From Arctopsyche grandis (Eukaryota; Arthropoda; Insecta; Trichoptera; Hydropsychidae): DNA of 64,000 nt. Numbering within the stretch: position 1 is the stretch's first letter; the number at the start of each line of letters is the position of its first letter. The stretch is from assembly GCF_051622035.1 (NCBI RefSeq), contig NC_135357.1, positions 18,783,256 through 18,847,255 of the forward strand, given 5' to 3'. The notes below the pieces were generated by a model. That model worked only from the letters and a program-made list of their open reading frames with translations, made no database searches and was not told the DNA's origin. Made by a program: the position numbers and the translations under genes. Below are positions 3,196 to 56,830 of the stretch, piece after piece.

Positions 3196-4100
3196 ACACT
3201 GAGCAACAACAAAAATTAACCAGAGCGGAGACTAACCAATCTTTACTAAGATTGACCCACTGAATTCGAATATGATATTGATTTTTGTTGTTTAGTGATC
3301 GTTTACGAGATATTAGAGTTTAAAAAAATGTGCGATTTTTACAGTTTTTTGGCTTTTACGGTCTTTAACTCAAAATCTAGTATTGCTGTGCTCAAAGTGA
3401 GTATTGGAATCAATAGTCAGATGTTTTTCCTATTGATTGTGATATTTCATTGCTTTAAAATACTTATAATTAATTGTCTAACTAATTTTAAAAGTCAAAA
3501 ATTTATTTTTTCTCCAAGCTATTTTGCATTTATTTCACAATTTTTTATTTCACCACGTTTATAAAGATTGGTTTTCTATCTCAATATTTTTTTTTTCTAA
3601 ACGTACTATCTCGAAACGAAACTCTATTACGAAAGCATTTAAATTGCAATTACCGCTCGAGTTAGTACGTTTAGATAAAAAAAATATTGAGATAGAAAAC
3701 CAATCCTTATAAACGTGTTGAAATAAAAAATTTGTCAAATAAATGCAAAATAGCATGGAGAAAAAATTCGTAAAAATAAATACATTTTTGACTTTTAAAA
3801 TTAGCTAGACAATTAGTTAGAAGTATTTTAAAGCAATGAAATATAACAATTAATAGGAAAAATATCTGACTATTGATTCCAATACTCACTTTGAGCGTAA
3901 CAATTCTAAATTTTGAGTTAAAGACCGCAAAAGCCAAAAAACTGTAAAAATCACGGATTTTTTTAAACGCTCATATCTCGTAAACGATCACCAACCAACA
4001 AAAATCATTATCATATTCGAATTCAGTGGGTAAAAGTTAGTAAAGATTGGTTAGTCTCCGTTCTGGTAACTCAAAAACGTGATTTTTTGTTGCTCAGTGT
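3196..4100. mobile_element. 905-bp fold-back element, ACACTGAGCAACAA ends
   Basis: The left terminus ACACTGAGCAACAA is mirrored by TTGTTGCTCAGTGT at the right. The two arms, roughly 400 bases each, run as inverted copies almost to the middle (about 3560-3715), where the phrase ttggttttctatctcaatat is itself inverted. AATA stands immediately outside both ends and may be the target duplication. A second copy lies at 48784-49262. The four small frames on the two strands are mirror images of one another, not genes. Confidence 0.8.
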
Positions 4101-8300: not shown

Positions 8301-8639
8301 ACGGATTCTACGAACCAAAACTTACATATGTACATACATACATACAAAGTCTCTTGCGAAATTTTATATTAGATGTACATAGGTTCTTATACAATTTTTT
8401 TTTTTTTTATTTTCTAGCTATCCAGCAATTTGGTGAATATTAATCGGTGCGCTATAAAGTATAAGGTGAATACGAAAATCTGTGAATTAAAATATTATGA
8501 TATCCCAAAACATTCGGGGATCATTAAACGTTGAATTGCACTGTGATAATATAATAAGATAAATAAATGAAAAACGCTTTAAAAAAGACAATTTGATTAT
8601 AAAATAAACTGTTTTAGTGAATAAATAATCTTATTAAAA

Positions 8640-11600
8640 ATGGCTATGGAACCAAGTTCTCTGATTGTGGACTATATAGTATTTTTGGTGTTTATAATTG
8701 GAAGTTCTCTATTGCCATTCTGGAGTAAAACAAAGACTCCACAAACAAAAGCAAATTATGTATTTGCTGCCGGAGGAAGTGTATCTACAGCAGCCATGAT
8801 GCTTTCAATAGCAAGAGGAACATTAGGAGTACGATCCTTTCTCGGTAATTAAACACATTTTATACATTTTGTTTTTTTGTTTTTATTTGACAACACTATG
8901 AATTAAAATGTTTTATTTTGTTTCTAGGTTTCCCATCCGAATTGTTTTATAAGGGAAGTGCCATGTGGGAAACTTTATACGGCATGATTTTTGCCTATCC
9001 CATAGTGTCGTTTGTATTTGTTCCAATATACTACTCTCTTGGAATTACGTCGGTGTATCAGTATTTAGATCTGCGGTTCAAATCTCGCACGGTCAGATGC
9101 TTAGCTTCTGCCACTTATATTTGGAGACAAGTGCTCAATTTGGGTGTGACAGTATTTACACCATGTGTAGCATTAAATACAGTGATTGGGCTTCCTTATT
9201 GGGCATCGATTTTGGGCATCACTGTAATAAGCATCTTGTTCAACTCATTTGTAAGAAAACGATCAACTCATGTGTAAACTATGTATTTTAAATTATAATA
9301 TATTATAGGCTACTATTTACATACTTTTAGGGTGGTCTCGGAGCAGCAATTAAAGCCGATGTCATCCAAGGGGTGACAATGATATTGATTTCAATGGCAA
9401 TCATAATTCAATGCGCTTATGAAGTTGGCGGACCGGTGAACATGTTTACAATACCTGCTGAACGTGGTCGACTAAAATTTTTTGAGTAATTAATTTTACA
9501 ATCTTAATTGTTTGGTGAAAATATCCTCAAGCGACATGAAATAAATTAAAATTAAACAAAACTATGTTCTTTTTAGTTTCAAGTGGGATCTCAATGTTCG
9601 CGTTGATACTATGTCTGCGTGGGTTGGACAAATGTTCATGTCTTTATCGTTGTATGGTTGTCAACAAAATTTCGTTCAGAGATATTGTAGCATGAAATCA
9701 GAAAAGAAAGTTAGAAAGTAAGCATATTTTTTATACAAATCCTCGTATAAATATTAAAATTCATATAAAATCATATAAAATCTAAATTTCAGAACACTCT
9801 TGTGGAATATACCCATGATAACGGTATTGTTCAGTTTATCCTGGATTGTTGGAATGGGTATTTACAGCATATACTCTAGTTGTGATCCCCTAACGGCGGG
9901 ATATACTAAGAAAATGGATGAAATTCTGCCATTCTTTATGGAAGACAAATTTTCTTATTTCCCTGGCGTCATGGGACTATTTATGGGAAGTTTGTTTAAT
10001 GGTGCTTTGAGGTAAGATTTGTTTAGCTTTATACTTATGCTTCATTCCTCCAATTTAAAATTTCTCGACACTCGTTTTTTCGACTTTTCGTCTACTTGAA
10101 CAGGAATTTGTATATTATATACAATTTGTATTTGTATACATGCATGTAATATCTATAGTATTCGAGACATATTGTGATTATTCATAGATTTTTAAGCTGT
10201 TAACACATCTTTCAATCAAAATCAATTCTTACTATATTTTTTCAATAGTTAATGTTTACATCGTAAATTAAGTATTTCACCGTGTAAAACATTTCTTGTA
10301 TATGTATAGGTACACAAACTCGATGACGGGATACACATAAAAAAAGTCGAGAAATTTCATGTCGGTGAAACGGAGTAGATCAATAGAATTTATATATGTA
10401 TTGTTTTACTAACTATTTCGTTTTTTTTTTAGTATATCAGTTTCACAGTTAAACTCACTTGCAACAGTCACATGGGAAGACTTTTTGTCTCAAGCTCCAG
10501 CGTTCAAAAATCTAAAAGACCGACAACAATTGACAATAATAAAGATTTTAGGCGCAGTTTATGGAATCATAATTATGGGAATCAGCTTCGGTGTGGGTTT
10601 GCTATCGGGAGTAATCGAAAGTAATATGTTGATGACATCTGCTACATCCGGTCCCCTACTCGGAGTGTTTGTGCTAGCTATGCTCATACCATGTGCAACT
10701 AAAAAAGTATGCATTTATACCATATTTTAGTATTTTACTGAACAGAGTATAATTCAAATATTTTCATAACAAAAAACTTCTCCATTTCATATTAAATTTC
10801 AATTTTATATTTATTTTTAAGGGTGCTATTGCTGGAATGGTTACTTCTCACGTTATTACCATGTGGATAACAGTTGGGCATCTAATGTATGATCAAACTC
10901 AAGTTGAAACTCTTCCACTTTCTATTAGTGTATGCATTTCAGATAAACCTTAAATGTTTTTAAAAATACAGAGAATTTAATATTTATAAAAACGCTAACT
11001 CAAATCCATTCTAGGGATGCACAAATACAACATTTTCAGCACATATTATGAAACCTGGACAGCAATGGCCTTTACCTTCTCCGCCGTTAGAGGTCAATAT
11101 AAACACAACACACTTTTTGGATCATTTCAATCATCTTGACACAACGACAATAAATCCATTAGATACGTGAGTAAAATAAATAATCAATTTTCGTTTTTTA
11201 ACTATAGAATTTGTTAGCATATATGTATAATTCAAATATGCACCTTTATTTCGCAGAAATCCTCTAAAACCTTTGTATCTAATGACATACATGTACTATG
11301 CCATGATTGGAACACTCATCACAGTGGTGGTTGGTGTAGTTGTCAGCTTAATATTTCCATTAAATGATGACGATGTGTATGATGAGGATTTACTGCACCC
11401 ATTGATTTTAAAAATGAGCAGGTGGTTTCCAGGAAAACCAAGAAAATATCTGAAAAAAGACAAGAATGAAAACAACACTTCTATGGAAGCTGCTGTCTTG
11501 CCAAACGGCGAAAAACCGAGCAAAGAAATTGATAATCCAGTATTTGAGATGACGGAGAACATTAATAATCACACGGTAGTTATAGAATCGACCAATAACG

Positions 11601-11695
11601 ACAGCAAAAAAAATTATTTAAATTCAGATTCAAAGTGTGGGTCTTTAAAAAAAAATAGCAACCTTGAATTGGGTAATCATGCTACTAAATTCTGA
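8640..11695 (+). CDS. SLC5-family sodium/solute symporter, nine coding exons
   Basis: The predicted product is a 671-aa multi-pass membrane protein that would couple sodium entry to uptake of a small organic solute at the plasma membrane. Exons: 8640-8844, 8928-9250, 9331-9485, 9577-9717, 9793-10011, 10433-10706, 10822-10929, 11015-11166, 11257-11695; all junctions are GT-AG and the phases join without a break. Family signatures are RGTLGVRSFLGFPSELFYKG (about residues 60-80), GGLGAAIKADVIQG, QQNFVQRYCS in the intracellular loop, SVSQLNSLATVTWEDF, and SGPLLGVFVLAMLIP followed by KKGA at the exon 6/7 join. A hydrophobic segment after exon 9 begins precedes a hydrophilic, Asn/Ser/Lys-rich tail ending NHATKF. 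The ATG at 8640 opens the first membrane helix. Closest subgroup is probably the insect monocarboxylate/multivitamin-transporter-like branch; the substrate cannot be read from sequence. It converges on RpL4. Confidence 0.88.
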
Positions 11696-12664: not shown

Positions 12665-15821
<3,157 letters not shown>

Positions 15822-21924: not shown

Positions 21925-22498
21925 ACTTTGAAACGGTCAGCTGATTGGCCGTCACACGGTCGCGAATAGTGACGACATCGGTTTGTTTACGTCTTCGAGT
22001 CGGGCTGAAAGGGATATTTCGCCGTAGAGCGGGTGCTTTTCGGCTGGAGGCGGTCGAGGCGAGCGCCGAACAGTGCGCGAACACGTGTTACATAAATAGC
22101 GAGGCGTTTCGGGTGGCAACACCGGCCATCAGTCCGGGGGAGGCGAGCGGAGAGGTGGAGCGGTGGAGTGGCGAGCGGCGAACGGCGAACGGCGCACCAC
22201 GTGCGGATCGCGAACTGCTCACTGTTCCCCGTGTCTAGCTCATTGCGATTCTCGTCGGCCCGCAGCCGGCGAGCTCCTCTCCTTCGTTTCGATTTGTCGT
22301 CTCGCTCGTCCTCTCGTCGGTCCTCTCGTCGGTCCTCCCGTTCGTCCTTCGTCCTCGCACCCGCTTCGCATCTGCGCTGCGCGCGTGTCGGCCGAAAGTG
22401 CGCGTGCTTCGTCCGCCTAACCTGAGCATGGTGTGCGGCTGAAAGTGCGAGTCCGCGCCACAGCGATCGTGCCCCCGTGGGATTCGCATCCCCGTGCG
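21925..22498 (+). promoter_or_regulatory. GC-rich promoter/5' leader region of Larp1 with a uORF
   Basis: Base composition switches abruptly from AT-rich to GC- and CpG-rich and stays so through coding exon 1 (to 22990), as at a housekeeping promoter. I cannot place the start site or any non-coding exon. A minimal upstream frame ATG-GTG-TGC-GGC-TGA (22428-22442) ends 56 bases before the chosen Larp1 start. Antisense and shifted frames here are composition effects. Confidence 0.5.
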
Positions 22499-25400
22499 AT
22501 GGCAGCCGTGTCGGGAGAAGTCGAGGCCGGGTCTTCCTCGGCCACGTACGCGGGCGCAGTCCTCAACCTGCGGCCCGACTGCAACAAGGAGAACCTGGCC
22601 GAAGCGGAGGCCGACGCCGACACCGACATCGGCACCGGCACCGGGTTCGTGCCCCAGGAGCTGGCCGAGGGGTTCGTGGCCGTGGTGGGCAACGCGCGCA
22701 AGGAGCGCCGCACCGAGCGCAAGGCCCGGCTGAACGGCCGCGACGACCACCCGCCGCCGCCCCCGCACCCGCACCCCCACCCCGCCCCGCACCACCACCA
22801 CACGCATCCCCACCCCCACCCCCACCCACACCCGCACCCTCACCACGACAAGCATGACAAGTCCGGCGAGAAGGCGGCTTCGCTGGCGGCTCCGCACCCC
22901 CAGCAGGCGCCTCCGCCCCATCAGCCCGCGGGCCCCGACGAGCCGCGCCGCTTCGTCGAAGCCCCCATTCCGAAGACTAACCCATGGCAGGTACGTTCGA
23001 AACATAACCTCAATCGCTCTCGTGCTCGCTTCTGGGCCGACGTTGGCGGCCATGTTTTTTCAAACCACCCAGCTGTCAAAATCGCCACTGTCGCACTCGT
23101 ACTTTTTTGACCAAAGTCACAATCGGAGTCGTTAAATATTCGATCGACTCCGACTCCGATCATGCGTTTATCTCGCATTTATTATTTTTTTACTCGACGC
23201 TTAATAAAATATACTCAGATCGGCACACCCAAAATATGCAGACCTGAGACACAATGCCTCCATCTTTGTTTTTCACTTGTTTAGGCCAAATTGAGGAGGC
23301 AAAAAAATATTTGGAAAAAAAGTGAACATTTTAATTATTTCATGTACGTATTCGTATGTAAATAAAAAATACCCGAAAAAAAAACAGTGATTTCACCATC
23401 TTTAATAACCGAAATTGTATTTTTTAACAACTGGACTGCTGTGATAATAAAAATCTTTTATTTGATCTTCGGGACACCATTTTGTGTGTGTGCGTGTCCT
23501 CTATACAGACACGTTTTTTTTTGACGCGAAAATGTGATATGACGAGGCTACGTTCAGGTTCACGAATTATTCGATTCGATGAAGTCTATGAATACTGGAA
23601 AATTCCAACTGAAATCGCATCCATTATTTTATTTTCGTCATTTTAACCAAAAATTGTAAAATGTATGTATATAATCTGAGACGGTCCAGCTAACTGGCTG
23701 AGCAAAGTTGGCATCCAATCGCTCATTTTATTGATTTATTAAATATTTAACCTTCGATGGCTACGTTAGATACAACTCGTAAATAAGATTTTGCTTTTGA
23801 AATGGTGTAAATATTACTATTTAGCTTTACCGCTCGGTACATATAACTGACACGAGTTATATCTATAGTCAAAATACAAATTATGTAACGCTCACTAGTA
23901 GAAGAATTATAAGAAATTATGAATTTTGAAAAGTTTTAATACCGTGCTAAATTTGTATATCGCAATACTGTTTACAAATGGAAATAAATATCAATATATA
24001 TTTATATATATTTTTTTTTTATAAATAATGTGTTAACCCTGGCAATTGTTGTACCAACATTAAACTTGTAGTTTTTATTCAAATGATTAGTAAAAGTATC
24101 TGCATTTGCCCTTATCAATATTTAAATTATGAATATTTGTCAAAAAGTACTACAACAGAAGTAGTAGTAGTAGATTAAAATTGACTGAATTGAAATTCAG
24201 TACAATAGTTAACAAATTAAGAACATTTTAATTGTCAAGTATTTATTTTAAAAATAATTTCGTCACATTTTTATATCGATGATGTGCATATGAATATTTA
24301 AAATGGAATTTGGGTGGCCACAAAGTATATATATATATATATATATTTTAAATGACACGAATGATCGCTTAATATTAAGACCGAATTACAAGAAAGATCA
24401 ATTTGACGTTTCCTCTGTAACATTTGTTTAAAAAAACAGCTGTTGCGGTGCGGTGAAAATTCTAGATTCATATTGGTCAGCCAAAATATTCCGACCAATA
24501 GGAATCGCGTATTTTGACGTTCGCGTATGGCAGCAAAGTTCTGCCGACCAATATGAATCGAGATCTAGACTCCTGAAACGAAACGAAATGCTAAGGCAAA
24601 AATCGCTTATCGAAAAGGTCACTAATTTCGCTTTGATTTTAGGCTATTTTGTCCTCTTGGTTTGTTCCGACATCACGAACCGTAATGTGGCGTAAAAATC
24701 CATTTAAAATCATACATAAAAACCGAGATAAAACGGCGAACGTACATATATTATGATAATGTATTCCAATGTTTGTTCAATTTCTGTAACCAGACTAGAG
24801 GGGCTTTCATGGATGGCTAATGGCTGAAAATTATGATTGCAATGCAATTTTATGCTATATTATATCCAGTCGGTATCGACCGACGAGATCTGTTTCGCCC
24901 ATTCGACTGTGCCCATTTTTTTATTCGACGAGATTATAATATTTCGATGTAGAAGTAAGTGCAAGTCAATAGTTATGTAATTTCGCGATGAAAAACGCAT
25001 GTGATTTTTATTTTCCATGCATACATAGATGTCTCCGTGTGTCTATCTAAACACTTGCGTGATTCATTTCGAAAAATACATATTTATTATATTGTATATA
25101 TAAAAAAAAAAGATTTGGTGTGTATTGCAACATCTGACGTTGTATCGCGTAATTAAATTCGAATTCTGACGTTCGTCCTGTAAAATAAGATCTGGCGAAT
25201 TACATCATCTCGTTTTCGAGCTTTGCCAATTTTTTTTTTGTGTTTATTTACTTTATAATACATCAGCTGTGTTGAACTGTATTGTCTCGAATTCAAAGGT
25301 ATTTCAATGTCGCCGTTGCAGAATGAACTTTTCATTTAATGCATTGTTGTAATGAAATTCTTCGGCATTGACCAATGATCATTAGTGTTAATGAAAGTCG

Positions 25401-31900: not shown

Positions 31901-34900
31901 GTGCATCATCCCCCAAAACCGACAGTTATCAAAGCGTCAAAACAACGAATAAATCACAAGGTGAGATTAAATAATACTGCGCCTTGTTTGGGAACAGTGT
32001 TTTATATGAAAACCTTTTAATTAAATCCATTATGAATTAACAACAAGTATTCATTTTTAACTTATTCAATGATGTGCATGCACTTAAAAACGATTTTTTG
32101 ATAGTTTTATTTTGAGTTCTATTGTGAGTCAGCACCTAACATTTGTTATAAACCTTTTTAGGCTAGCGATTTTACTGATATTGGAAACTGGCCAAGTTTA
32201 GGTGGAGCACCAATAGTTTTACCACCTGGAACTATTTCTACTTCTCAGACGGAAAATCATGTTTCCGTTATTTCAAACGCTATTAACAAGGTAGTTGTAT
32301 GTTTCGCTCCTATAATTGATTGTTGAATTTAGCTCCGATGAAATACTTTTTTTCTCTACGTACATAACATATTTATAATTTGAATATTGTTCATAATGTG
32401 GCAATATGTTTATTTAAGCAGTCAAAATTCATGTACAACAAATTCAACATTTACATGTTATAAATACAATAAATAAGATATTCTATCATCACATTTGGTG
32501 TTTGATCATTATTTATTTTACATCACATTTGCAATCTTTGAAATGTGTCAATTTCCATATGTACGGACAGTTGATTATTTGTAAATATTATGATTGTCAA
32601 ATGAATGACAGACCTCAATATTTGTTAACTAATTTTAATCAGACTGGGGTAGATAAAATACATTTTTACATGGCTTTTTTTCCTTTTTTCCAGGACGTAA
32701 ACACACAACGTATTCGATCATTAGAAAAAAAAGAAGTTGAAACTCCTGTAAATATTAATAACAACAATAACACATCTGATAAAGCCACAAAAGCACCTGG
32801 AAAAGTATCTAAGCCTAAATGGGTTCCATTAGAGATTGATGTTAAGTCTAGAAGCGGCAAAAGGGATAGATCTCCTCGTGTACCTTCTAATTATAAAGAT
32901 TCTGGTATAATGCGTTTTAAACATTGTTCAATATTTGCAATTAGCTTTGTTATATACAATATAAAATTGTATTTTTAGACTCTCAATCATTAAATGGTGA
33001 CGACTGGCGAGGCAAATCGAGTTCGAATAGAGGCAATCGATATAATAGACCAGGTAAATTTTATTAAACTTAATTTATAAAGTATTAAATATTACATATG
33101 CATGTACATTAATATGGTTACAATATTTGAAGGTCGAGGAGGCAGATATTCGCTAAGAGGAAGGGGCAGTACCCATCAACAAAATAGACGTTTACCGATT
33201 CCACTCATTACTGATTATAGACACGATTTCACACAGGTATGCACTTTTGTACTTATGTACGCTGAATTGTCAAAATTCAAGATCATAAATTCAATTTATT
33301 TTCATATGTGATGTTGAATTATATTTCATCTGCTTTTCAATTGATACAACTTAATAAAAAATTTCGGCTTAGAAATAAGCTGTTAACAAACTGACAATAC
33401 AAATGAAAATGGTTTATATGTGTTTACATACATATTTACATATATGTAATAAATATTTTCAATTAACTCTTATACGGTACTATACTTTCGCTTTAAATTG
33501 TACTGAATAGGGGATCTTAACCTTTTATAATCCAGTCTCTTTTGTTTTTTTTAAACAAATTCAATTTGATGCTTTTGGATGCTATTCAATACTTTAGTAT
33601 AAATGGTAGCAGTTTGATCAATATTTGTCAAATAAAAATTTGAAAATTCGACATTAACTGAACACCCTCCTTATATCTTGAAATTTATTCTACAAAACAG
33701 TGCTATTGTTGATATCTCATTCTAGATATTTGTGTCGGTAAGAGGGCCCGTTGAGAACTATTTTTTGTGACATATCTATAATTAATTATATAAGGAGATA
33801 CATATTAAAATTATTAGTATTTATCAGCAGACTGGCTGTCTGGTCTGCATAAACATTCATTATTTGTATCTTATGATTTTTCTTTTAAATTTGGATCAAG
33901 TTTAGGTGGAATTGTTCCTTGGAGACCTTTTTATGGAGATTATGAAGCTATTCATCAATAACTGGTTAAGATCCTGTGGTATATAGTTATAAATATGTAC
34001 ATGTACACTGGTGAAACTATTTTGTAATTTATAAATATCTGTATTCTCTCATTTCTCATAAAATAATTATTTCTAAAAGTAATTTGGGAAAGCTAAACAT
34101 AAAAAAATCAATAATAGCTTAGATTTTCATAATTTACTACCAAGTCTCTCTTTGTATGAAGAATATTAAAGGATGAATTTTCTTCTTTTCCTTTTCCTGT
34201 CCTTCCTCAACTTTTCTTTGTACTTTTAAACCTATCTTTTTTTCACTTTGTCTTTGTGAAAATGTAAACGTATGGATTTAATTATTTTTATTAATATTAT
34301 GTATTTTTATTTGACATGTTATATAATCTATATCTGTAATTGGTTAATTCGTTTACCTTTTTCCAACACTAAACCATTTTTTTTTATCATGCTGTAACAT
34401 TTGCTTTCAATGTTGCCTTCATAATCTAAACTCATCTGCTTTAATAATCCAATTTTTCTTTTTCATTTTTGCGTTTCATCCTTTTAATAATTTGCTATAT
34501 TTCAACACTTTAAATTTGCCTTTTGGGTTTATGGCTTTTTTTTTTTGCTTTATCACCATCCTGGTTTTTATTGTGGGGTTGTGGTGCCAACTCAGACATG
34601 TATGGTACCACCATCCCCGTTGCCACCTCCTCCTACCTTGGTACCTACCCTTCACCCACAGCGGCTACCTCTACCTCCACAGGCTACAACTACTGTTGCT
34701 GCATATGGAGCCAAATTGTCTACTGGGTCGTATCTTATGCCGTATATAAGTTCTTACTATTTTGGTGGCAATCCTGTCAACTATCTCAACATAGATGGTC
34801 CTACCCTGAAAGACTATATAAAAAAGCAAATGTGGGTATTAAATAAATATTATTATTAATAATATTTGTTTCTTATATTATGAGCTTTAGTTTAATGTTT

Positions 34901-37900
34901 TTTTGTTTTTTTTTTTAGTGAGTATTACTTTTCTGTGGAGAATTTAACAGGGGATTTCTTTCTACGTCGTAAAATGGCACCAGATGGTACGATACCTGTT
35001 ACACTGATAGCATCATTCCACCGAGTCCGTGCTTTGACAACAGACTTACCCCTTGTACTAGAAGCTATTCGAGAGTCTGATAAAATTGAATTGATTAAAG
35101 GTTTTTTGGTATGTGTTATTGGTCATATTTTAATTTCTAAATTAAATTTGTGATTTATATTAAATTTTATCCATCGCAATGTATTCTTTTAGGTACGAAC
35201 ACTGGTTGACCCAACTAAATGGCCTATCCTTGAACAAAATTCAGCAATTCCTAATTCGAATTCTGAAGATGTTGAGGGTGGTAACACTTTATTTAATGAA
35301 GAAAGACCTCCATCCACTGAATTAATAACTGAGCACTCAATTGCGAGTATAAGTAATACAGAATTGAGTTCAAATGCTACAGAGGCACCTCGGTAAGTAT
35401 ACATATTACACTGGTAAAATAAGTGATAATTTATTATTGTATAATTGTTTTATTTTGTATCAATTTAGGGAACGTGTGCCAGAGTTAGTACGAAGATTGA
35501 GTTCCTCACAGAATGAAAGTACAGTTGCATCATCCCCGTCTTTGATGGCAACATCTCCAGGTGGTGCATCAAGACCTGCATCTCGAGGTGCACTCTTAGG
35601 CTTGTTCCCAACAGCAGTGAGGTCTTTAGGAGGTGCTCCTCCCATGCTAGCACCACTCTCAGGTCCAATGCCTTCGATACCTGCTCCTCCAATGCCAATG
35701 TATGCATTTTATTGTAAATAATCAACTATTTTTTTTCTGATTTTTATTTTTAAAAATCTTATTTAATTGTTATTACAGAAGATTTCGTCCAGTAACCCGA
35801 ACAACTACTGATGACCACTTGAATCCTGATGTTCCAGAATTCATTCCCACTTCTAATACACATGATGACATTTTAAGTAGGTTTTAATTTTTTTATTCAC
35901 ACAAATATTATAATCCATATATTGAATATGAATGGGTGGTAACCCAATCCCCACACATAAAATGGTCACGTGATTAATTCATTTATTTATTTAATTTATG
36001 CTACCCACATTTAACTGTTTACACTCGAATGCCACCATATCAGCAGCATTAAGATTTGCCGTATTGCTCGAATGCCACCACTGCGGAGGCATTCGAGCAT
36101 ATTACGTTAGTGTCATCTATACTTTTATTGGTTTCTCTAAATCTTTGAATTTCCATTATATATTATTAACAAAAATAATTTTAGCATGAATGTATAACAA
36201 TAACTTAATAATTCGTGTAAGTATCAAACGTGTTGTCACTTGCAATGTTGCAACATTTTACGGGTCATATTTTTTGGATAATAAAATTTTTAATTTAAGT
36301 CCATGCCACTCAGCATTATACATAGTATTACAGGCATTAGGTTATTTTTTGCGTTTCAAACGCTCTACTGGCAAGAAGTTATCATTATTTCAAGCAGACA
36401 CATAAATTTTCAAATTATGGGTGTTGGAAATATTTTCTACATTCAATTATTTAAATATTAATTTTTTGGTTTTTTTATTAACTATTTGTATGTGTTTTCC
36501 TCAATAAAATTGAAAAAATATAATTTTTTACATACTTATTAAAATAAAAGAAATTACTGAAAAACGTTTTGAGTTTACGGTATTAACACTTAAAATTTCT
36601 TTGAGTGCAAAAGGTTAAGAATTGATGTTTCGCTTCAGTATAATATTTTTTTAATACATATATTTTTTTCCACTATGGATATTTTAATTTAATACTTCCT
36701 TTTTCTTAATCTCTAATTATAGATAAAGTGAATGATTCAATTGTAAATCACCAAAAAAATGCTGATGTTAGAGTTTCCCCCAAAATCGAATTTAAAATGA
36801 CGGATGCACAGATAACTGATATATGGACTGAGGTAATACTTTTATTTTTTAATTTAATAAATACGTAAAGCGAAGAGAAATTTTATTTTCATTTTGGATT
36901 TAGGTTAAAAGACGTTCGAAAGGCTCTTCGAAGGAAAAATCTGCACCCAGTAACAATAATAGTAAACCTGTATCAGGGGCACCCAATGAACCTAGAGAGG
37001 AGTTGGATTTCCAGTTTGATGAGGAGTTAGATCAAACTGTTCCACCACCTAGACAGAATACTTTCACTGATTGGTAAATATATACATATATTTCGAGTAC
37101 CTATGTTAAACAAGAAAAATGTCATAAAACCTATGTTTTATGATGTCAGTTCTATTTACTGTTGTTTTAAAAAAAAATCAAAATGAATGACTGGAAATTG
37201 GGTTTTGATATTTAATTAATATTTAGTGTTATTGTGATAAAAGAAGCAGATGTTATGCGTGTTACTCTTTTTTTTTTTTTTATGGATTGTCATGTTCAAA
37301 TTTATTGTGCGCCTTGGTTTGTATAATATTTTAGTTTAGACATTAAAGGTATTAAAAGTAAATTATGAAATATTTTAAACTGATTATTGCAGAAAGTTCA
37401 CTCAAAAGTCATGATATTTATTTTTCTTTTTTTTTATACCCAATTATCGTAAAAAGAAGGAGGATGTCGACAAACTTAGATGAATAAATAACAATGTGAC
37501 AAATTGATTACTGCTGGTGTGAATTGCGATTCAATATTGGTATAATTTCTATCTGGAAAAAATACCTTGAAAGTGTAGCAAAGCAAATTGGCTTATGGAG
37601 GATTGGTCACATCTTATGAAATAACAAATTAAATTAAGATAACAAATCATGTGATAATAAATGTCTACTTCGTCTTATGTCTTTGATATAAAATTAGATG
37701 TAGCTAGTTAGCATATTTTGAGAAACCCAGCTAGTGATATTTTTTATGTACATATATTTGAATGATAAATGGGGTTGTGAAATGTACTAAGTTAATTATT
37801 TCCTTTTTTATTTATTGGAAACTAGGCAATTGTATTGAACAAATCATTGACTTTTCTGCATAACAGATACGATTAGGCTATATCGACAAATATGTTTTAA

Positions 37901-40900
37901 GTGTTTTCAAAAAAAATTGCAATGAATTCAATAAAAGAAAATTCTTGCAAAAAACTTGTTATTTTTGATTTTTTTTTTTATTTTATACATTGAATATTAT
38001 TATAATTAAATATGACTACAGATAAAAGTCTATAATGCAAATGTGTATTTTTTTGGAATTTTAATAATAAACAATAATAAAACGACATTTCTATTTGATT
38101 TCTATGTATTTCTATATGCCCCCTTTTTTGCATGTCCCCTTTTCTTAACAGAATTTATATAAGTGAAATTACCGATTCAACTCCATTAATATAACATTAT
38201 ACTTTTTTTATACAAAGGTCTGATGGTGATGAATCTGATCATGAATTTACTGATCGTGATGTCAATAAATTAGTTATCGTAACACAAAGCTCGTCCCGTG
38301 CACTCCGACATGATGGCCGAGACAGAGGCGGTAGTAGATGGGAAAGTCGAGTCAAAATTACTCGTGACTTGGAACAAGCCATAAGTGATGGTCTTTTCTT
38401 CTATGAAGCTGACATTTGGACTCACACTAGCTATGTAAGTAAACTATTACCTCACAGACGTCGAGCATATAAGTGTTATTTGTCAATTTAAAATATTTGG
38501 GATATACTCATAGACATTAACTTTTGAAATTTTGATTACAAAGTATCGACCAGCTAATATTGACAGTCTTATCGGAATGAAGGTGTATTTTTGAGAGTCA
38601 CTATAAGGAAATTAGACACCATATTTAATTGTTTCAATTTAACAAATATCGTTGGGTCCAATGTTTCAATTCATTTCTATTTAATTTCATCACACTCAAC
38701 ATATATATCTTAAAAGATTATACGACGTAGGTAGAGATAACTGCTAGTCACTGATAGTGAATCATCCCAACGCAGCCATCATAATGATATCTCAAAAATA
38801 CAAATAAGCTTTCATTATAAATCCATTTAATTCATTATAAAATAATATGTATAAATTAGAACCCGAGATAAACTGGGTGTTTGTAATAACTATTAGCTTT
38901 TATAATTGGAACAACACAATTTAATGTTAGAAAGTTCTATGTCATATTTTTACTAGCCTCTTATTACTTCGTTTTCGATTTTTCCGTCTGATTTCGTTTG
39001 ATGAAATTTGGGTTCTTATCCAATCGTTTTTTTTTATTTCACTCAATTTTCGTATCAACTTTGTGATATGTTTTTGTTCTGCATGCATCTAAAAGTATGA
39101 CTTACATATAGAAATGGTCCATTTATTTTTTCAACTTTAAAGGTAAATTTAAAATGAATTGTATTGTACTTATTAGGATCGAAGTCGCAATCATCGTTCA
39201 TCTCGTGATGAAAAAGAAGTTTCTGATACCCCCCAGGTTCGGGAGCAAGAAACTCCACCACCACCTCCTCCACCTCCTCCATATGTAAGGAATCTGAGTA
39301 AGGTTTTTTATTTAAAATTATATATCATTTTTTAAAAAAAAATTACACATTTTTCTCAGTATCAACAAACAGAGGAATCACAGATGCAGTCTTCTGGAAG
39401 ACGGAAAGACTTGAGAAAAGCTGCAAGATTTTATGCAGTTAGTAAAGATCCTCATAATACAGATCTCAGGTTTGATAGTACAATATATGTTTAATAATTA
39501 GCATTGTTTTGAATTGGCTGTAAATAAAAAACGTTTATTTTTTATAGAACTGGTCGTAAAAGAAAAACACGCCATAGTTTGGATCCGCCTGTTGAACATC
39601 ATGTAGGTTGGATAATGGATTCTAGAGAGCATAGACCCAGAACCCAAAGCATGGGGTAATTTATATTATTGCTAATACACTTTCAAATATTGTTATTGGA
39701 TATTAAAAGATAAAATTACACATTGTTTTCATTATTAATTTGATTCTTCATTACATATCTTATCGTAGTTCATCATTGGGTACATCACCATGTGAGTCAG
39801 CGGCTGGCAGCTCATGGGGTTCGACCGGACGGTCGCTTCCTGCTTTCCAGCATCCAAGTCATAGCTTATTGCGTGAAAATAATTTCACACAACAATTATA
39901 CCATAAATATCACTCTAGATGTCTTAAAGGCAAGTTTATTGTGCCACAAACAAATAAATACAATTAATGGCATATATATTATTGTTATGTTAATTCAAAT
40001 ATGTATTTACAGAACGAAAGAGATTAGGAATTGGTCAATCCCAGGAAATGAATACTCTCTTCAGATTTTGGTCATTCTTCTTGAGAGATAATTTTAATAA
40101 AAATATGTATAACGAGTTCAAGTTAGTATATTTATTGGATATTATTAGTGAAATATTAACAACTGGCAAGAGTATTGTTTAATGTTTTTCGCTTGTGTTT
40201 TTTTTAGAATGCTAGCACTGGAAGATGCCGGCGAAGGATATCGATATGGATTGGAATGTCTATTTAGATTCTTTTCATATGGATTAGAAAAGAAATTTAG
40301 ACCTCATCTTTATCAAGACTTTCAATGTGAAACCGTTCATGATTATGAAAAAGGTTTGTTTTCCCGGAAATTTTATTCATGCACTATATTTATACAGTTG
40401 TTTATATGTACATTTATTTTATTTTCATTGCGCTTACGTTTTGCTATTTCAAATTAAATTTTCGGTAAAATCCTCTCAATGCATATTGATATACATGCAT
40501 TTTATGTAAATAATAAATATAAATTTTCTTTTTATATTATTCGAAATCTTTATTTTTGATTTATAACTTTATTTTTGTTTTAGGACAATTATATGGCATT
40601 GAAAAATTCTGGGCTTTCCTCAAGTATTACAAACATGCCGAAAGCCTTCAAGTTGATACTAAACTTGAAGACTATTTATTAAAGTTCAAAACAATCGAAG
40701 ATTTCAGAGTCGTTGAAGTAAGATTTGCAAATTGTACAAATTTTGTGGATTGAGCGTTACAATTTGATATTGAAACATCTTGTTTTTCCAATAGCCTCAA
40801 TTAAACGAATTACTGAGCAGAGCCAGACGCGAAGCTAATCAGCCGGAATCTAGACGAACGCCGGGACCAACTCGAACTCGTAGTGTTAGTGAATCAGATC

Positions 40901-41653
40901 AAACCTGTAGTTCTCAAGCTGATTCTTCCAAGTAAGTTTTACTCCTCTAGTTCAATAATGACGAACCTATTGTCAAGACTATTTTATACAAAATTAGCAC
41001 CAACAAAAATGTACATAACTGCCAAAATCGTAATCCATTACCACTTATAATAATTTTCGTATCATCGGTATTTTCAGATTAGGCATGTCTTGGAGTGGAA
41101 GTGTTGCAGCAAGAGCTATACATGGGAACACTGGCAACCATTCTAGAAGCAGAACGGGTTCTTTCGGATCAGGTCTTCGTGCAACAAAAAAATTATCGAA
41201 AAAGGATTCAGATTTTGGTATTATATCATTATATTTAAGTATTTCACATGTTGGCTTTAATGTATCTTGATACATATTTATGAATAAAAAAATTATACAT
41301 CAAGTAGACGGTATTTATCTATGTATATAAATATGTTAATTAAAAATATTTCTTTTGTAGGAAAACAAGGAAAGGATTCTGATCGTCCACACGACTTTAC
41401 TTGGACCAAAGAATCATCACCTGCAACAGTTAATAAGGATAAAGAAAAATTTGGATCAAAAAAACTTAAATCACAAACAGTGCCAAAGGATTCTAACAAA
41501 GTGCATACTTTAAAAGAAAATCAAAGTGAGTCAAAAGAAGTTCCTAAAGGCATATCCACAGATATGTCCAGCAAAGTTCAAGGCGCTTCTAATAACCAAG
41601 CAGGATCAAGGAACAAAGAGTGGCGAAAAACTGAAGAAGTTGGAGGAAAATAA
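22499..41653 (+). CDS. larp1: La-related protein 1, 25 coding exons
   Basis: RNA-binding regulator of translation and stability of TOP mRNAs in the cytoplasm; 1359 aa. Exons: 22499-22990, 31702-31780, 31869-31960, 32162-32290, 32694-32904, 32979-33053, 33133-33236, 34596-34831, 34919-35108, 35193-35392, 35469-35699, 35779-35876, 36723-36832, 36904-37073, 38218-38434, 39177-39284, 39360-39469, 39548-39655, 39769-39929, 40013-40121, 40208-40353, 40584-40717, 40795-40931, 41078-41217, 41361-41653; every phase closes. Exon 1 has [12 protein letters not shown] and a His/Pro tract. [13 protein letters not shown] follows in exon 4. The La motif spans about residues 460-550 ([20 protein letters not shown], then [10 protein letters not shown] and DPTKWP). 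[11 protein letters not shown] and [16 protein letters not shown] lead to the C-terminal DM15 region, about 1010-1160 ([60 protein letters not shown]), which in known LARP1 binds the cap and TOP start. Intron 19 uses a GC donor. The start ATG is the first in frame preceding the conserved block. Confidence 0.94.
24461..24569. repeat. Palindromic hairpin with TCTAGATTCATATTGGTC arms
   Basis: TCTAGATTCATATTGGTC on the left is mirrored by GACCAATATGAATC..TCTAGA on the right, around a centre containing a second ccgaccaat phrase. Probably a short MITE; boundaries approximate. Confidence 0.6.
27224..27399. mobile_element. MITE with GTAGGAAGACACTTGG inverted ends
   Basis: GGTCCATCCGCCGTAGGAAG followed by acacttgg is mirrored by ccaaagtgtcttcttacagc and ggacc. 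Inner bases (tgtccctcacacc versus ggtgtaagggac) also pair. About 176 bp, non-coding; family unassigned. Confidence 0.65.
27405..27648. mobile_element. Mariner-type MITE in a TA duplication
   Basis: Ends CAGGTATTCTTCGACTTACG and CGTAAGTCGAGGACTATCTG are imperfect inverted repeats flanked by TA on both sides. The terminus closely resembles the widespread Tc1/mariner CAGGTAGTCCTCGACTTACG end. The 60- and 70-aa frames inside are not transposase. Confidence 0.75.
27760..27958 (+). mobile_element. Non-autonomous Helitron-like element (199 bp)
   Basis: Starts TCTAATATATAATTTCG, ends GAAGCCGGGTAAAACCACTAG, and is inserted between A and T, as Helitrons are: a TC start, a CTAG end and no target duplication. 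A near-identical partner is at 28890-29094. Confidence 0.7.
28890..29094 (+). mobile_element. Non-autonomous Helitron-like element (205 bp)
   Basis: Same TCTAATATA start (with the TA tract expanded), the same body (aatttcgaaagagactttgt, tgtttaagcggtttatatta) and the same GCCGGGTAAAACCACTAG end as 27760-27958, followed by T. Confidence 0.7.
29461..29520 (-). mobile_element. Helitron-like 3' end with terminal hairpin
   Basis: Read on the minus strand, CCCGTTGAAATTTTAACGGG forms a small hairpin 10 bases before CTAG, the structure expected at a Helitron 3' end. The 5' end is not identified. Confidence 0.45.
29551..30562. mobile_element. hAT-like element (1.0 kb) with perfect 8-bp TSD
   Basis: Ends CAGGGATCTGGAGCAA and TTGCTCTGCTCCAGATCCCTG-type inverted repeat, flanked by ATTAATCG at 29543-29550 and 30563-30570. 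Sub-terminal gctccg phrases repeat at both ends. A minus-strand 98-aa frame (30150-30446) containing [16 protein letters not shown] has protein-like composition and could be a remnant of a captured or ancestral gene; I do not recognise it. Confidence 0.85.
33237..34595 (+). other. Larp1 intron 7, no gene seen
   Basis: AT-rich intron with a pyrimidine-rich 3' third. A short phrase near 33905-33960 (gtggaattgttccttggaga) is unusually protein-like but stops quickly and has no exon partner that I can justify. Confidence 0.5.
35877..36722 (+). other. Larp1 intron 12, with small hairpin
   Basis: Apart from the hairpin at 36066-36098 the intron is AT-rich and featureless. It begins GTAGGT and ends ATTATAG. 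Confidence 0.6.
36066..36098. repeat. Perfect 11-bp inverted repeat in Larp1 intron 12
   Basis: GCTCGAATGCC and GGCATTCGAGC are separated by 11 bases. The left half (ctcgaatgccacca) also occurs directly repeated about 40 bases upstream. Confidence 0.7.
37074..38217 (+). other. Larp1 intron 14, nothing recognised
   Basis: 1.1 kb of AT-rich intron sequence; GTAAAT donor, CAAAG acceptor. No repeats or RNA genes evident. Confidence 0.6.
38435..39176 (+). other. Larp1 intron 15, nothing recognised
   Basis: 0.74 kb AT-rich intron, GTAAGT donor and TATTAG acceptor. Confidence 0.6.
39930..40012 (+). other. GC-AG intron 19 of Larp1
   Basis: The exon ends AAAG and the intron begins GCAAGT. Joining to AACGAAAG after TTTACAG restores [17 protein letters not shown], the conserved DM15 sequence. 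The nearest GT (eight bases later) would break the frame, so the GC donor is required. Confidence 0.88.
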
Positions 41654-48783: not shown

Positions 48784-49262
48784 ACACTGAGCAACAAAAA
48801 ATCACGTTTTTGAGTTACCAGAGCGGAGACTAACCAATCTTTACTAAGTTTGACCCACTGAATTAGAATATGATATTGATTTTTGTTGGTGGGTGATCGT
48901 TTACGAGATATGAGCGTTTAAAAAAATCCGCGTTTTTTTACAGTTTTTTGGCTTTTGCGGTGTTTAACTCAAAATTTAGGATTGTTACGCTCAAAGTGAG
49001 TATTGGAATCAATAGTCAGATATTTTTCCTATTAATTGTTATATTTCACTGCTTTAAAATACTTATAATTAATTGTCTAGCGAATTTTAAAAGTGAAAAA
49101 TATATTTTTTTTTACGGATTTTTTCTCCGATTTTTTTAAGCGCTCATATCTCGTAAACGATCACCCACCAACAAAAATCAATATCATATTCGAATTAAGT
49201 GGGTCAAACTTAGTAAAGATTGGCTAGTCTCCGCTCTGGTATTTTTATTTGTTGCTCAGTGT
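48784..49262. mobile_element. Second ACACTGAGCAACAA fold-back copy (479 bp)
   Basis: Same termini and the same arm order as 3196-4100 (accagagcggagactaacca, gtttacgagatatgagcg). The left arm is nearly full length but the right arm keeps only its outer about 130 bases, so this copy is a lopsided fold-back. Confidence 0.8.
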
Positions 49263-51511: not shown

Positions 51512-54500
51512 TTATTTTTTGTGGTGTTCGTATTTATGATGCTTATGTGGAGTGAAATGATGGCAGTGACAATTGCAAGCCTTCTTACGGCACATAGAGT
51601 GGCATGGGAAGTGTCTACAGAACTTCCATTTCTTTAAATTAGGAAGGCAACTGCATTTTCGGCAGCTATGGAAAAGTGGGTGTCTTTTCGATTTTTTATG
51701 TCCATGTTCATCAACAGAAATTGAAATTGAAATGGAAACATCACTCGAGTAGGAATCAGGTAGAGAATAAGACACATCACCTCTAGGTAACTTTCTTAAT
51801 TCGGTCGACTTTGGATGTGAATCAGAATTTGAATGTAAATGATAGTTATATGATTCTGATATGGAAATGGAAATAGATGTATCATGTGAATGTGGCAAAT
51901 GTTTGCGTCCATAGCGACGTCCACGGGGTTTCGTCGGTGCTATTGAATGATCATTTGAGTGAGAGGATTTAGGGTGATGTTCAGTTGAATGAGATATTGA
52001 AATTGAAATATGTTTTGTAATGTGAACTTCTACGGAATCAGAACTAGAATGTGAATGTGGTGCTAGTGGATGTTTCTCTAAAGGCTTACGTTTAGGAAGA
52101 AGTCCACGAGGACGCTTTCGTCCATTGGGTTCGTTTGATTTAGAGGATTTGGGATGTTCAGATGAATGAGATATCGAAATTGAAATATGTTGGGTTATAT
52201 GTACATCAACGGATTCGGAACTAGGTGAACCGTGTGAATGTAGACGTCCTCTTCCAGGACGACGTCCTGGCCCTTTAGACCCACCTGGACCTCTGGGCTT
52301 TTTGAGTCCATTTGGATATTCTTTGGAGTGAGAATGGCCAGGACGATGTTCAGTTGAATGAGATATTGAAATTGAAACATGTTTGGTGATGTGAACATTG
52401 ACAGATTCAGAGCTGGAGTGTGAATGTGGTCCAAGAGGGTGTTTTCCAGGACGACGGCCTCCTGGTCCTTTGGGTCCACCTGGACCTCTACGTCCACCTG
52501 GGCCTTTAGGTCCTTTGGGTCCATTTGGCTTTTCGTCCGAGTCAGATTGTTTTGGACGATGTTCAGTTGAATGGGATATTGAAATTGAAACATGTTTGGT
52601 GATGTGAACATTGACAGATTCAGAGCTGGAGTGTGAATGTGGTCCAAGAGGGTGTTTTCCAGGACGACGGCCTCCTGGTCCTTTGGGTCCACCTGGACCT
52701 CTACGTCCACCTGGGCCTTTAGATCCTTTGGGTCCACTTGGCTTTTCGTCCGAGTCAGATTGTTTTGGACGATGTTCAGTTGAATGGGATATTGAAATTG
52801 AAACATGTTTGGTGATGTGAACATTGACAGATTCAGAGCTGGAGTGTGAATGTGGTCCAAGAGGGTGTTTTCCAGGACGACGGCCTCCTGGTCCTTTGGG
52901 TCCACCTGGACCTCTACGTCCACCTGGGCCTTTAGGTCCTTTGGGTCCATTTGGCTTTTCGTCCGAGCCAGATTGTTTTGGACGATGTTCAGTTGAATGG
53001 GATATTGAAATTGAAACATGTTTGGTGATGTGAACATTGACAGATTCAGAGCTGGAGTGTGAATGTGGTCCAAGAGGGTGTTTTCCAGGACGTTTAGGTC
53101 CTCGTGATCCTTTCGGTCCTTTGGGTCCGTGATCTTCTACCGAATGAGATATCGAAATTGAAACATGTTCAGTAATATGTATACTAACGGATTCAGAGCT
53201 GGAATGCGAATGTGGTCCAAGAGGATGTTTTCCAGGACGTTTAGGTCCTCGTGGTCCTCTAGGTCCACCTGGACCTCTGAGTCCACCTGGGCCTCTACGT
53301 CCACCTGGGCCTTTAGATCCTTTGGGTCCACTTGGCTTTTCGTCCGAGTCAGATTGTTTTGGACGATGTTCAGTTGAATGGGATATTGAAATTGAAACAT
53401 GTTTGGTGATGTGAACATTGACAGATTCAGAGCTGGAGTGTGAATGTGGTCCAAGAGGGTGTTTACCAGGACGACGGCCTCCTGGTCCTTTGGATCCACC
53501 TGGACCTCTACGTCCACCTGGGCCTTTAGGTCCTTTGGGTCCATTTGGCTTTTCGTCCGAGTCAGATTGTTTTGGACGATGTTCAGTTGAATGGGATATT
53601 GAAATTGAAACATGTTTGGTGATGTGAACATTGACAGATTCAGAGCTGGAGTGTGAATGTGGTCCAAGAGGGTGTTTTCCAGGACGTTTAGGTCCTCGTG
53701 ATCCTTTCGGTCCTTTGGGTCCGTGATCTTCTACCGAATGAGATATTGAAATTGAAACATGTTCAGTAATATGTATACTAACGGATTCAGAGCTGGAATG
53801 CGAATGTGGTCCAAGAGGATGTTTTCCAGGACGTTTAGGTCCTCGTGGTCCCTTACGTCCACCTGGACCTCTGAGTCCACCTGGGCCTCTACGTCCACCT
53901 GGGCCTTTAGGTCCTTTGGGTCCATTTGGCTTTTCGTCCGAGTCAGATTGTTTTGGACGATGTTCAGTTGAATGGGATATTGAAATTGAAACATTTTTGG
54001 TGATGTGAACATTGACAGATTCAGAGCTGGAGTGTGAATGTGGTCCAAGAGGGTGTTTTCCAGGACGTTTAGGTCCTCGTGATCCTTTCGGTCCTTTGGG
54101 TCCGTGATCTTCTACCGAATGAGATATTGAAATTGAAACATGTTCAGTAATATGTATACTAACGGATTCAGAGCTGGAATGCGAATGTGGTCCAAGAGGA
54201 TGTTTTCCAGGACGTTTAGGTCCTCGTGGTCCCTTACGTCCACCTGGACCTCTGAGTCCACCTGGGCCTCTACGTCCACCTGGGCCTTTAGGTCCTTTGG
54301 GTCCATTTGGCTTTTCGTCCGAGTCAGATTGTTTTGGACGATGTTCAGTTGAATGGGATATTGAAATTGAAACATGTTTGGTGATGTGAACATTGACAGA
54401 TTCAGAGCTGGAGTGTGAATGTGGTCCAAGAGGGTGTTTTCCAGGACGTTTAGGTCCTCGTGATCCTTTTGGTCCTTTGGGTCCGTGATCTTCTACCGAA

Positions 54501-56695
54501 TGAGATATCGAAATTGAAACATGTTCAGTAATATGTATACTAACGGATTCAGAGCTGGAATGCGAATGTGGTCCAAGAAGATGCTTTCCAGGACGTTTTC
54601 CTAGGCCTTTGGGTCCTTTAGGACCATGCAGGCCATGTGGACCTTTCGGTCCATGTGGACCTTTCGGTCCATGTGGACCTTTCGGTCCGTGTGGACCTTT
54701 CGGTCCGTGTGGACCTTTCGGTCCGTGTGGACCTTTCGGTCCATGTGGACCTTTCGGTCCATGGGGACCTTTCGGTCCATGGGGACCTTTCGGTCCATTT
54801 GGTCCATGTAGATGATATTCATGAGATATTGAAATTGAAACATTTTTGTGTTTGTGAATCTTGGTAGAATCTGAGCTAGAGTGCGAATGCGGCGAAAGAG
54901 AATGTTTTCGTGGTCGACGGCCTCCAGGACCTTTCGGTCCGTGTGGACCTTTTGGTCCATATGGTCCTAATGGTCCCTTGGGGTCATGTGGGCCTTTAGG
55001 TCCTTTGTTTCCATTTGGATGATACTCATGTGAATGAGATATTTTTAAGTGATGCTCAATTGAAACACGATGTGTAATGTGAACGTCAACTGAATCAGAA
55101 CTAGAGTGTGAATGTGGGCCCAAAGGATGTTTTCGCGCCGGATGCTTATGTTCGCCAGACATCGATATAGAGATAGAATGTCTTTCATGTATGGTTATTT
55201 CATGTGAATGGGAAACAGGGTGAGAATGTTGAATATTGATTGGATGTTTTTTCATATGGTGTTTTTTATGGTGATGTAAATGATGCTTTTCTTTACTATG
55301 CGAATGATGCATTCCTTTTTTAAGTGCTGGATGAGAGTGATTTTGCTGAGACATGGATTCTGATTGCAGAACACCGCCAATGCGATGACGTTTCTTATGG
55401 CGTACATTGGTTACGTGTTCTTCAACTGTTACACTATCAGTGCCTGGTTTACCTGGTTTACCATGCAAAACGCCTGGCTTTCCACCCCACTTCTTTTTGT
55501 GATGATTGTGAATATGTTTCCCATCATGTGAAACAGAGTGAGAATGCGAGTGATGGTTAATGTGCTTATGATTATGAATATTCGTAGATATCGACACCGA
55601 CGTCGAACCGGGATGTCCGTGTAATTTATGTGGATGTTTTATTTTATGTAGAGTATCAATTGAGTGAGAATGTAAAATGTTATGAATTTTCTTTAAGTTA
55701 TTTTTCTTATGCTTATTTGTGTGAATGTTATGTACTTCGTGTGAATGGGAGTGAGATGATACATCATGACCATGATGTTTGTGTTCTTTATGGTGTACAT
55801 TAGTTATCACTTGACCTTTTTGAATGTGTGTTTCATGATGGTTGTGAGTTTCGTGATGGGTATGGGCTCCATCGTGACCGGCATCGCCGACTCCACCATC
55901 GTGAACTTCACCGATTCCATGACCGGGATGACCGGGATGAACAGGATGACCAGGATGACCGTGACCATCATGTCCGTGCTCCTTATGATGGACGTTGTTA
56001 ATCACTTTTCCTTTCTCAACGTGTACATCTTCATGTGAATTGTGGGCATGATCATGGCCTTCATGATGTTCGTGTCCTTCATTATCGTGTTTATCATGAT
56101 CATGGCCTTCATGATGTTCGTGTCCTTCATTATCATGTTTATCATGATCATGGCCTTCATGATGTTCGTGTCCTTCATTATCATGTTTATCATGATCATG
56201 GCCTTCATGATGTTCGTGTCCTTCATTATCATGTTTATTATGATCATGGCCTTCATGATTTTCGTGCCCTTCATTATCATGTTTATCATGATTGTCATGC
56301 TTTTCATGACTGCCATGCTTTTCATGATTGTCATGCTTTTCATGATTGTCGTGCTTATCATGTTTATCATGATTGTCATGCTTTTCATGATTGTCTTGTT
56401 TTCCATGATTTTCATGGTTTTCATGGTGGTCGTTATTGTCGTGGTGCTCGTTTTTGTTATGATTCACATGATCTGAACCGTCATGATGTCCATCCTTATG
56501 AACTGGGGCGCCATGATTGTTGTGATCTGGACCTTTTTTCAGATTGCCGCATGGCTCAGCATGTGCCAGCGTCACCTAAAAATTATATATTTTTTATTGT
56601 GCACAGATTATTTTGATGCCAATTAGTTTTAAATAATAAAAACAACTTACAGATACCAGCGTAACACATAAAAATACTAATATAAGAAACTTCAT
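51512..56695 (-). CDS. Secreted His-rich, collagen-like, (SX)n repeat protein; putative silk component
   Basis: Two exons: 56651-56695 encodes [15 protein letters not shown], then a 75-bp GT-AG intron (56576-56650), then 51512-56575; 1702 aa in total. A hydrophobic signal peptide ends near VTLAHA before EPCG. Residues about 40-420 are His/Asp/Asn/Lys-rich, with five 16-residue repeats ([16 protein letters not shown] type) and a module ending NVHHKEH used twice, with a third relative ([10 protein letters not shown]). Residues about 600-675 are Gly-X-Y triplets, mainly GPKGPH. Residues about 679-1460 are an array of modules of the type [25 protein letters not shown], then Gly/Pro/Lys/Arg linkers. 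Two divergent (SX)n blocks follow, and the last 55 residues hold nine cysteines. The alternating serines resemble caddisfly heavy-fibroin phosphoserine blocks (family knowledge); function as silk, glue or egg coat is inference. It is not a fibroin I recognise. Antisense and shifted frames inside are shadows of the repeats. Confidence 0.88.
52250..54590 (-). repeat. Tandem A/B module array in the repeat-protein gene
   Basis: Module A is 147 bp (49 aa: SIHITEH, SVEDH, short linker). Module B is 213 or 234 bp (71 or 78 aa: [15 protein letters not shown], long GGRRGPGG linker). Order from the N-terminal side: A B A B A B B A B B B B, where A-B pairs recur every 381 bp and B alone every 213 bp. 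Nucleotide identity between copies is nearly complete over 100-bp stretches, indicating recent unequal exchange. Confidence 0.9.
54609..54815 (-). repeat. 18-bp GPKGPH repeat (collagen-like run)
   Basis: Nine copies of an 18-bp unit encode Gly-Pro-Lys-Gly-Pro-His in frame; with the neighbouring [12 protein letters not shown] and GLG this makes about 23 consecutive Gly-X-Y triplets. Codons vary slightly between copies (cat/cac, ccg/cca). Confidence 0.9.
56050..56290 (-). repeat. 48-bp repeat encoding [16 protein letters not shown]
   Basis: Five nearly identical 48-bp units in frame near the N-terminus; one copy has Asn in place of His/Asp at two positions. Flanked by looser HDNHEKHD repeats. 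Confidence 0.9.
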
Positions 56696-56821: not shown

Positions 56822-56830
56822 TTATATCTT
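56822..56830 (-). promoter_or_regulatory. TATA-like box upstream of the repeat-protein gene
   Basis: GATATAAG on the gene strand, about 130 bases before the ATG, would give a leader near 100 nt. No clear initiator motif follows. A strong TATA box would suit a highly expressed secretory gene, but this is motif plus distance only. Confidence 0.4.

Follow-up and report, generated by a model that had tools for sequence, protein, structure and literature searches.

What is the histidine-rich secreted protein encoded at positions 51512-56695 (minus strand) of the window, the whole 64,000-nucleotide stretch of contig C3 analyzed here, and how does it relate to the fibroins of caddisfly silk? The gene is real and intact, with two exons that encode a secreted protein of 1702 amino acids. 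We consider it likely to serve as an accessory silk gene in a caddisfly that is probably a retreat maker; its product would be a secreted block copolymer resembling heavy fibroin and distinct from the true heavy fibroin. We favor this reading because its (SX)4E blocks, its GPXGX motifs, its proline content of about 10%, and its short first exon match both the published heavy fibroins and the one encoded in the same assembly. Published silks are cited throughout from portions of the papers named.

Architecture of the window protein

The sequence-only reading of this locus had placed a 1702-residue secreted protein here, and its coordinates, strand, and length are all correct, with an ATG, a splice deduced from the genomic sequence alone, and an open frame running to TAA (Table 1). 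It had also described a separate signal-peptide exon; there are indeed two exons, but the first encodes only the initial 15 residues, which form part of the signal peptide. Assuming cleavage before residue 20, the mature chain (residues 20-1702) has a calculated mass of 182 kDa, an isoelectric point (pI) of 9.95, and 285 histidines among its 1683 residues. The protein as a whole contains 16.7% His, 13.9% Ser, 10.6% Pro, 10.0% Lys, 4.6% Arg, 2.5% Thr, 0.6% Ala, and 0.6% Tyr.

Histidine is enriched at both ends of the chain. What had been called a His/Asp-rich N-terminal third does contain 28.4% His and 15.8% Asp+Glu over residues 24-480, together with 11.4% Lys+Arg, but it makes up about a quarter of the protein. 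A 193-codon open frame at window positions 56035-56616 on the plus strand lies antisense to the His-rich repeats; it is probably a by-product of their codon pattern and is not taken as a gene. At the opposite end, His reaches 20.6% over residues 1640-1702, and all nine cysteines previously ascribed to the tail were counted at residues 1653-1686. Structure prediction for the last 147 residues gave a mean predicted local distance difference test (pLDDT) score of 46.9.

Between these ends lie twelve tandem core (SX)n modules, as first described, flanked at either end by degenerate copies (14 modules by a loose pattern; 18 SISIS blocks in total). The 26-residue alternation fits 14 modules, the commonest form having SSSSNHTHSSSSE on one face and HHSEVVIKVIIHT on the other. 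There are 16 exact (SX)4E motifs, whereas 1000 shuffles averaged 0.03 and never exceeded 2; the commonest are SISISHSTE (nine copies) and SISISHSVE (four), and most of the SISIS blocks extend to a complete (SX)4E motif. The same 1000-fold shuffling gave, for S-x-E sites, a mean of 12 (maximum, 24) where the protein has 47, and for GPXGX motifs a mean of 3 (maximum, 9) where it has 77. These are serine blocks of the caddisfly heavy-fibroin kind, and such motifs are reported, in the portions of the literature cited below, to be phosphorylated and to bind calcium, in agreement with the initial interpretation. Among 13 core modules the ratio of nonsynonymous to synonymous differences (pN/pS) is 0.156, which indicates that the module peptide is conserved more than its DNA, with the limit that tandem copies are not independent.

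A run of Gly-X-Y had been noticed; the longest comprises 23 triplets at residues 606-674, compared with a maximum of 6 in 1000 residue shuffles, and the Pfam Collagen model scores 42.5 bits (cut-off, 27.2). The GPX stretches could form a triple helix. More likely, they are not collagen but correspond to the GPXGX (GPHGL) spacers that heavy fibroin carries, since only one block reaches 23 triplets, the remaining listed runs span 4 to 10, and the long block is strongly basic (pI 11.6). NCBIfam returned four bacterial surface-protein families, all far below their cut-offs, which we take as chance effects of composition.

Fibroin genes of the assembly and their relation to the window gene

The assembly searched comprises 476 Mb in 189 contigs, those discussed being labeled C1, C3, and C4 here. 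A fibroin light chain exon on C1 (translation, GRIYPFEASWDS) scores 49.5 bits against a Pfam cut-off of 27, and this family matched none of 14 control genomes. Heavy fibroin was found with a caddisfly-style repeat query, which gave 26 matches (best E value, 0.0018), every one of them within a single 6036-codon frame on C4; we identify this frame as heavy fibroin because of its content, not because of the E value of the query. The encoded protein has 6050 residues (623 kDa), a first exon of 42 bp (MRAAILLILFCSLQ), and an intron of 79 bp. It contains 88 (SX)4E motifs, mainly SASASVSRE (40), SKSASVSYE (22), and SRSVSVSAE (19), as well as 324 GPXGX motifs and GPHGL runs, with 10.1% Pro, 33.2% Gly+Ser, and cysteines 22 and 1 residues before the C-terminal end.

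In the caddisfly heavy fibroins described to date, exon 1 is short (42 bp in the entries consulted) and (SX)nE motifs are combined with Gly- or Gly-Pro-rich modules, with 33.1 to 46.4% Gly+Ser and with 9.9 to 12.3% Pro in retreat makers and 12.4% in one case maker (PMC12576367). A conserved cysteine lies near position -20 (PMC9504780), and the heavy-fibroin intron of Stenopsyche falls between codons 14 and 15 (PMC6302954). The heavy fibroin of P. conspersa is described without GPXGX, so Gly-Pro spacers are not universal (PMC9432349). Because the light chain scores above its cut-off and the C4 heavy fibroin matches the published description, the silk genes mark the species as a caddisfly, and probably as a retreat maker. 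A lepidopteran origin is disfavored, as the heavy fibroin carries (SX)4E motifs and P25/fibrohexamerin has no match in the assembly, the latter point being weak since none was found in the control genomes either. A query with the N terminus of Bombyx heavy fibroin, run with no positive control and so carrying no weight, had no match in the assembly up to an E value of 10.

The window gene is not the heavy fibroin of this species, which sits on C4. The two nevertheless share a short first exon followed by a long repetitive one (exon 1 and intron of 45 and 75 bp in the window gene versus 42 and 79 bp), repeated (SX)4E motifs, Gly-Pro-rich spacers, and a proline content of about 10%. In contrast, the window protein is far smaller (182 versus 623 kDa) and differs in His (16.7 versus 3.3%), Lys (10.0 versus 1.8%), Arg (4.6 versus 9.8%), and Tyr (0.6 versus 6.4%). 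The X residues of its serine blocks are mostly I, I, H, and T/V, whereas those of heavy fibroin are A, V, K, R, and Y. The two proteins have no 6- to 10-residue peptide in common. Although blastp gives E values as low as 1.6e-60 with composition correction and the low-complexity filter switched off, and 1e-4, in a GPH stretch, at default settings, we do not take these values to show descent, since shared composition and repeats can yield them.

Several observations weigh against an accessory silk gene of heavy-fibroin kind. The N-terminal alignment to the C4 heavy fibroin reaches an E value of 0.012 in a four-sequence comparison, with a score that 125 of 2000 shuffles equaled. The C-terminal tails do not align (E value, 2.3); heavy-fibroin ends are thus not clear in the window protein. 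A shared promoter was not found, the similarity over 500 upstream bases being matched by 69 of 300 shuffles, and no silk-like open frame was seen in the 50 kb flanking the window at each end (frames of at least 100 amino acids, judged by eye on their first 130 residues). The alanine content of 0.6% is unlike that of pseudofibroins, a group of caddisfly silk genes discussed below, and neither Table 2 for P. conspersa (PMC9432349) nor Table 1 for L. lunatus (PMC11092239) lists a comparable protein.

Within the reach of four queries of the assembly, the window gene appears to have no second copy. A search with 3089 bases of its DNA gave three matches, all inside the gene, and both the last 147 residues (E value up to 0.001) and residues 265-480 (E value up to 0.1) matched only themselves. 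Of 17 matches to the core module, 16 lie inside the gene, the other (E value, 0.26) being an Hsc70 gene named by eye. A scan of viral contigs for relatives yielded three stretches that fit the pattern, none of which was confirmed.

Putative mechanism and rival explanations

The (pSX)n blocks of caddisfly silk assemble into Ca-bridged beta-domains, which provide yield and recovery, and fibers without Ca2+ retain about 1% of their stiffness (PMC4929942). By analogy, the core of the window protein should act like such blocks if phosphorylated. Each 26-residue module would adopt an alternating beta-strand, and the serines along one side of it (SSSSNHTHSSSSE in the commonest module) would carry phosphates linked through Ca2+, as they do in heavy fibroin. 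The GPX stretches would serve as spacers, either flexible or triple-helical. The His-rich ends probably bind other metals, which would be transition metals, or sense pH, in which case they would switch in the gland duct. A second metal chemistry at these ends is plausible because the chain is His-rich at both of them; buffering or pH switching is nearly as likely. Finally, the nine cysteines suggest fixing by disulfides, perhaps to other silk proteins, and may cross-link the chain into the fiber or its coat.

A preCol-like working principle, after the byssal collagens of mussels, is plausible. We propose only tentatively, and with more doubt than confidence, that the gene encodes a second heavy-fibroin-derived silk protein in which two independent metal cross-linking chemistries on a single chain (Ca2+-phosphoserine in the (SX)4E strands and transition metal-His at the two ends) are combined with collagen-like triplets, as an insect counterpart of preCols by convergence.

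There is a distinct possibility, overlapping with the accessory silk reading, that the protein belongs to silk and only its phosphoserine binds metal, the His-rich part providing solubility and a pH switch. The acidic and basic residues of this part (15.8% Asp+Glu and 11.4% Lys+Arg) are in line with such a role, as are the pH changes mentioned for the lumen of the moth silk gland (PMC9432349) and the altered structure of mussel His-rich peptides at different pH (PMC6477608). However, with 28.4% His this part exceeds the content of about 20% in the metal-binding ends of preCols (PMC6477608).

It is rather unlikely that the product is secreted by some other tissue as an adhesive or matrix protein, as in egg-mass jelly or cuticle, with (SX)n blocks that arose by descent from or convergence with heavy fibroin. 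Egg-mass jelly from the caddisfly accessory gland would be one possible site. The absence of a comparable protein from the P. conspersa and L. lunatus silk tables, as cited above, speaks for this alternative, yet caddisfly heavy fibroins are laid out in just this way, with exact (SX)4E motifs, Gly-Pro spacers, and a short first exon. The location of the window gene on C3, apart from the fibroin genes on C4 and C1, is neutral, because cadhesins of L. lunatus also lie on a chromosome other than those of the fibroins (PMC11092239). A heavy-fibroin copy that had decayed or been misassembled would account for the common (SX)4E and GPXGX motifs but is very improbable given one open frame of 1687 codons, good splice sites, a pN/pS of 0.156 between modules, differing ends, and the lack of any common 6- to 10-residue peptide.

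Surroundings of the gene and comparison with known silks

Table 1. Positions of the features of the window gene (window coordinates) and of the heavy fibroin frame (contig coordinates)
Feature	Residues	Position	Strand	Remarks
TATAA box candidate		56822..56826	-	131 bases upstream of ATG; motif match only
Exon 1		56651..56695	-	45 bp; ATG and first 15 codons, part of signal peptide; followed by GTAAGT donor
Intron		56576..56650	-	75 bp, GT...AG, between codons; read from sequence
Exon 2		51512..56575	-	Single open frame, 1687 codons plus TAA
His-rich N-terminal part	24-480	55181..56551	-	28.4% His
48-bp tandem repeats inside His-rich part		56047-56292	-	
Collagen-like block	606-674	54599..54805	-	23 unbroken Gly-X-Y triplets, mostly GPK/GPH
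Twelve near-identical core modules	684-1425	52346..54571	-	26-residue alternating strand ending in (SX)4E; GPX/GPGGR spacers
Nine-cysteine cluster	1653-1686	51563..51664	-	Within His- and Lys-rich tail
Heavy fibroin exon 2 frame		C4 28156811-28174918	-	6036 codons

Elsewhere in the window, open frames at 8625-11692 (plus strand) resemble exons of a sodium:solute symporter, with 8891-9274 above the Pfam SSF cut-off. A ribosomal protein L4 gene occupies 12668-15382 (minus strand); its exon pieces, picked by eye, match L4 chains in the PDB, with 6xu6 and 4v6w scoring best among the best 60 of 64 sequences, both of which we take to be Drosophila ribosomes. A probable LARP1 gene extends over about 32418-41650 (plus strand), with Pfam LARP1_HEAT above its cut-off at 40152-40454, and a His/Pro-rich open frame at 22421-23107 may, as a guess, be an upstream LARP1 exon. 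Hydrophobic open frames at 3256-3970 and 48897-49136 of the window and at C3:18747777-18748089 are probably copies of a dispersed repeat, as the three look alike by eye. Rfam and tRNA scans of the window found nothing.

Caddisfly silk serves as a model of fibers that are tough when wet, and its strength has been credited to the Ca-phosphoserine blocks of one giant protein (PMC4929942). If the accessory silk reading is true, caddisflies would tune the fiber or glue through a separate, much smaller metal-binding component. With its 1702 residues, such a component could be expressed much more readily than heavy fibroin, allowing a direct test of whether one fiber uses two metal chemistries.

Among caddisfly silk genes, close parallels in layout are the five pseudofibroins of P. 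conspersa, whose two exons include a first one that encodes part of the signal peptide (PMC9432349), and the cadhesins of L. lunatus, with the same short and long exons (PMC11092239). Like these, the window gene encodes a repetitive, secreted protein distinct from heavy fibroin. Unlike those listed, which are mostly Ala-, Ser-, or Thr-rich, its product has 0.6% Ala and 16.7% His, carries (SX)4E motifs and collagen-like triplets, and lies outside the Ser-Ala or Ser-Gly motifs or high Ser/Thr content that characterize the group (Ser, 13.9%; Thr, 2.5%). Cadhesins are also said to be without a conserved Cys-coding 3' end, where the window gene has nine cysteines. His is among the three commonest residues in 0 of the 27 candidates in the P. 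conspersa table (PMC9432349) and, in the L. lunatus table, only in the 8-kDa SMPB2; the words histidine and collagen are absent from the text of the latter paper (PMC11092239). We place the window gene, as a new form, in the same broad kind of caddisfly silk genes as heavy fibroin and the pseudofibroins.

Outside caddisflies, the cocoon silk of the sawfly Nematus oligospilus is likewise an insect silk with Gly-X-Y repeats. It consists, however, of three small collagens with Gly-Pro-Pro repeats, and the portion of its description consulted includes no (SX)n or His-rich part. The claim that no described protein joins His-rich, silk-like, and collagen parts does not hold as worded, as mussel byssal preCols do so, their His-rich ends (about 20% His) binding Zn2+ and adjoining silk-like and collagen parts (PMC6477608). 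For this combination together with (SX)nE blocks, no described case was found in the portion of the open-access caddisfly-silk literature covered.

The window protein and preCols are both block copolymers with His-rich ends (28.4 and 20.6% His in the N- and C-terminal domains of the former), silk-like beta-forming parts, and collagen triplets; preCols work underwater, as the window protein would. They differ in that collagen forms a continuous central domain of about half of the preCol chain and is small and interrupted in the window protein, where the longest run is 23 triplets. No (SX)nE motif is mentioned for preCols in the sections cited, and no descent from these mollusc proteins is claimed. 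The window gene would offer a case of convergence with mussel byssus.

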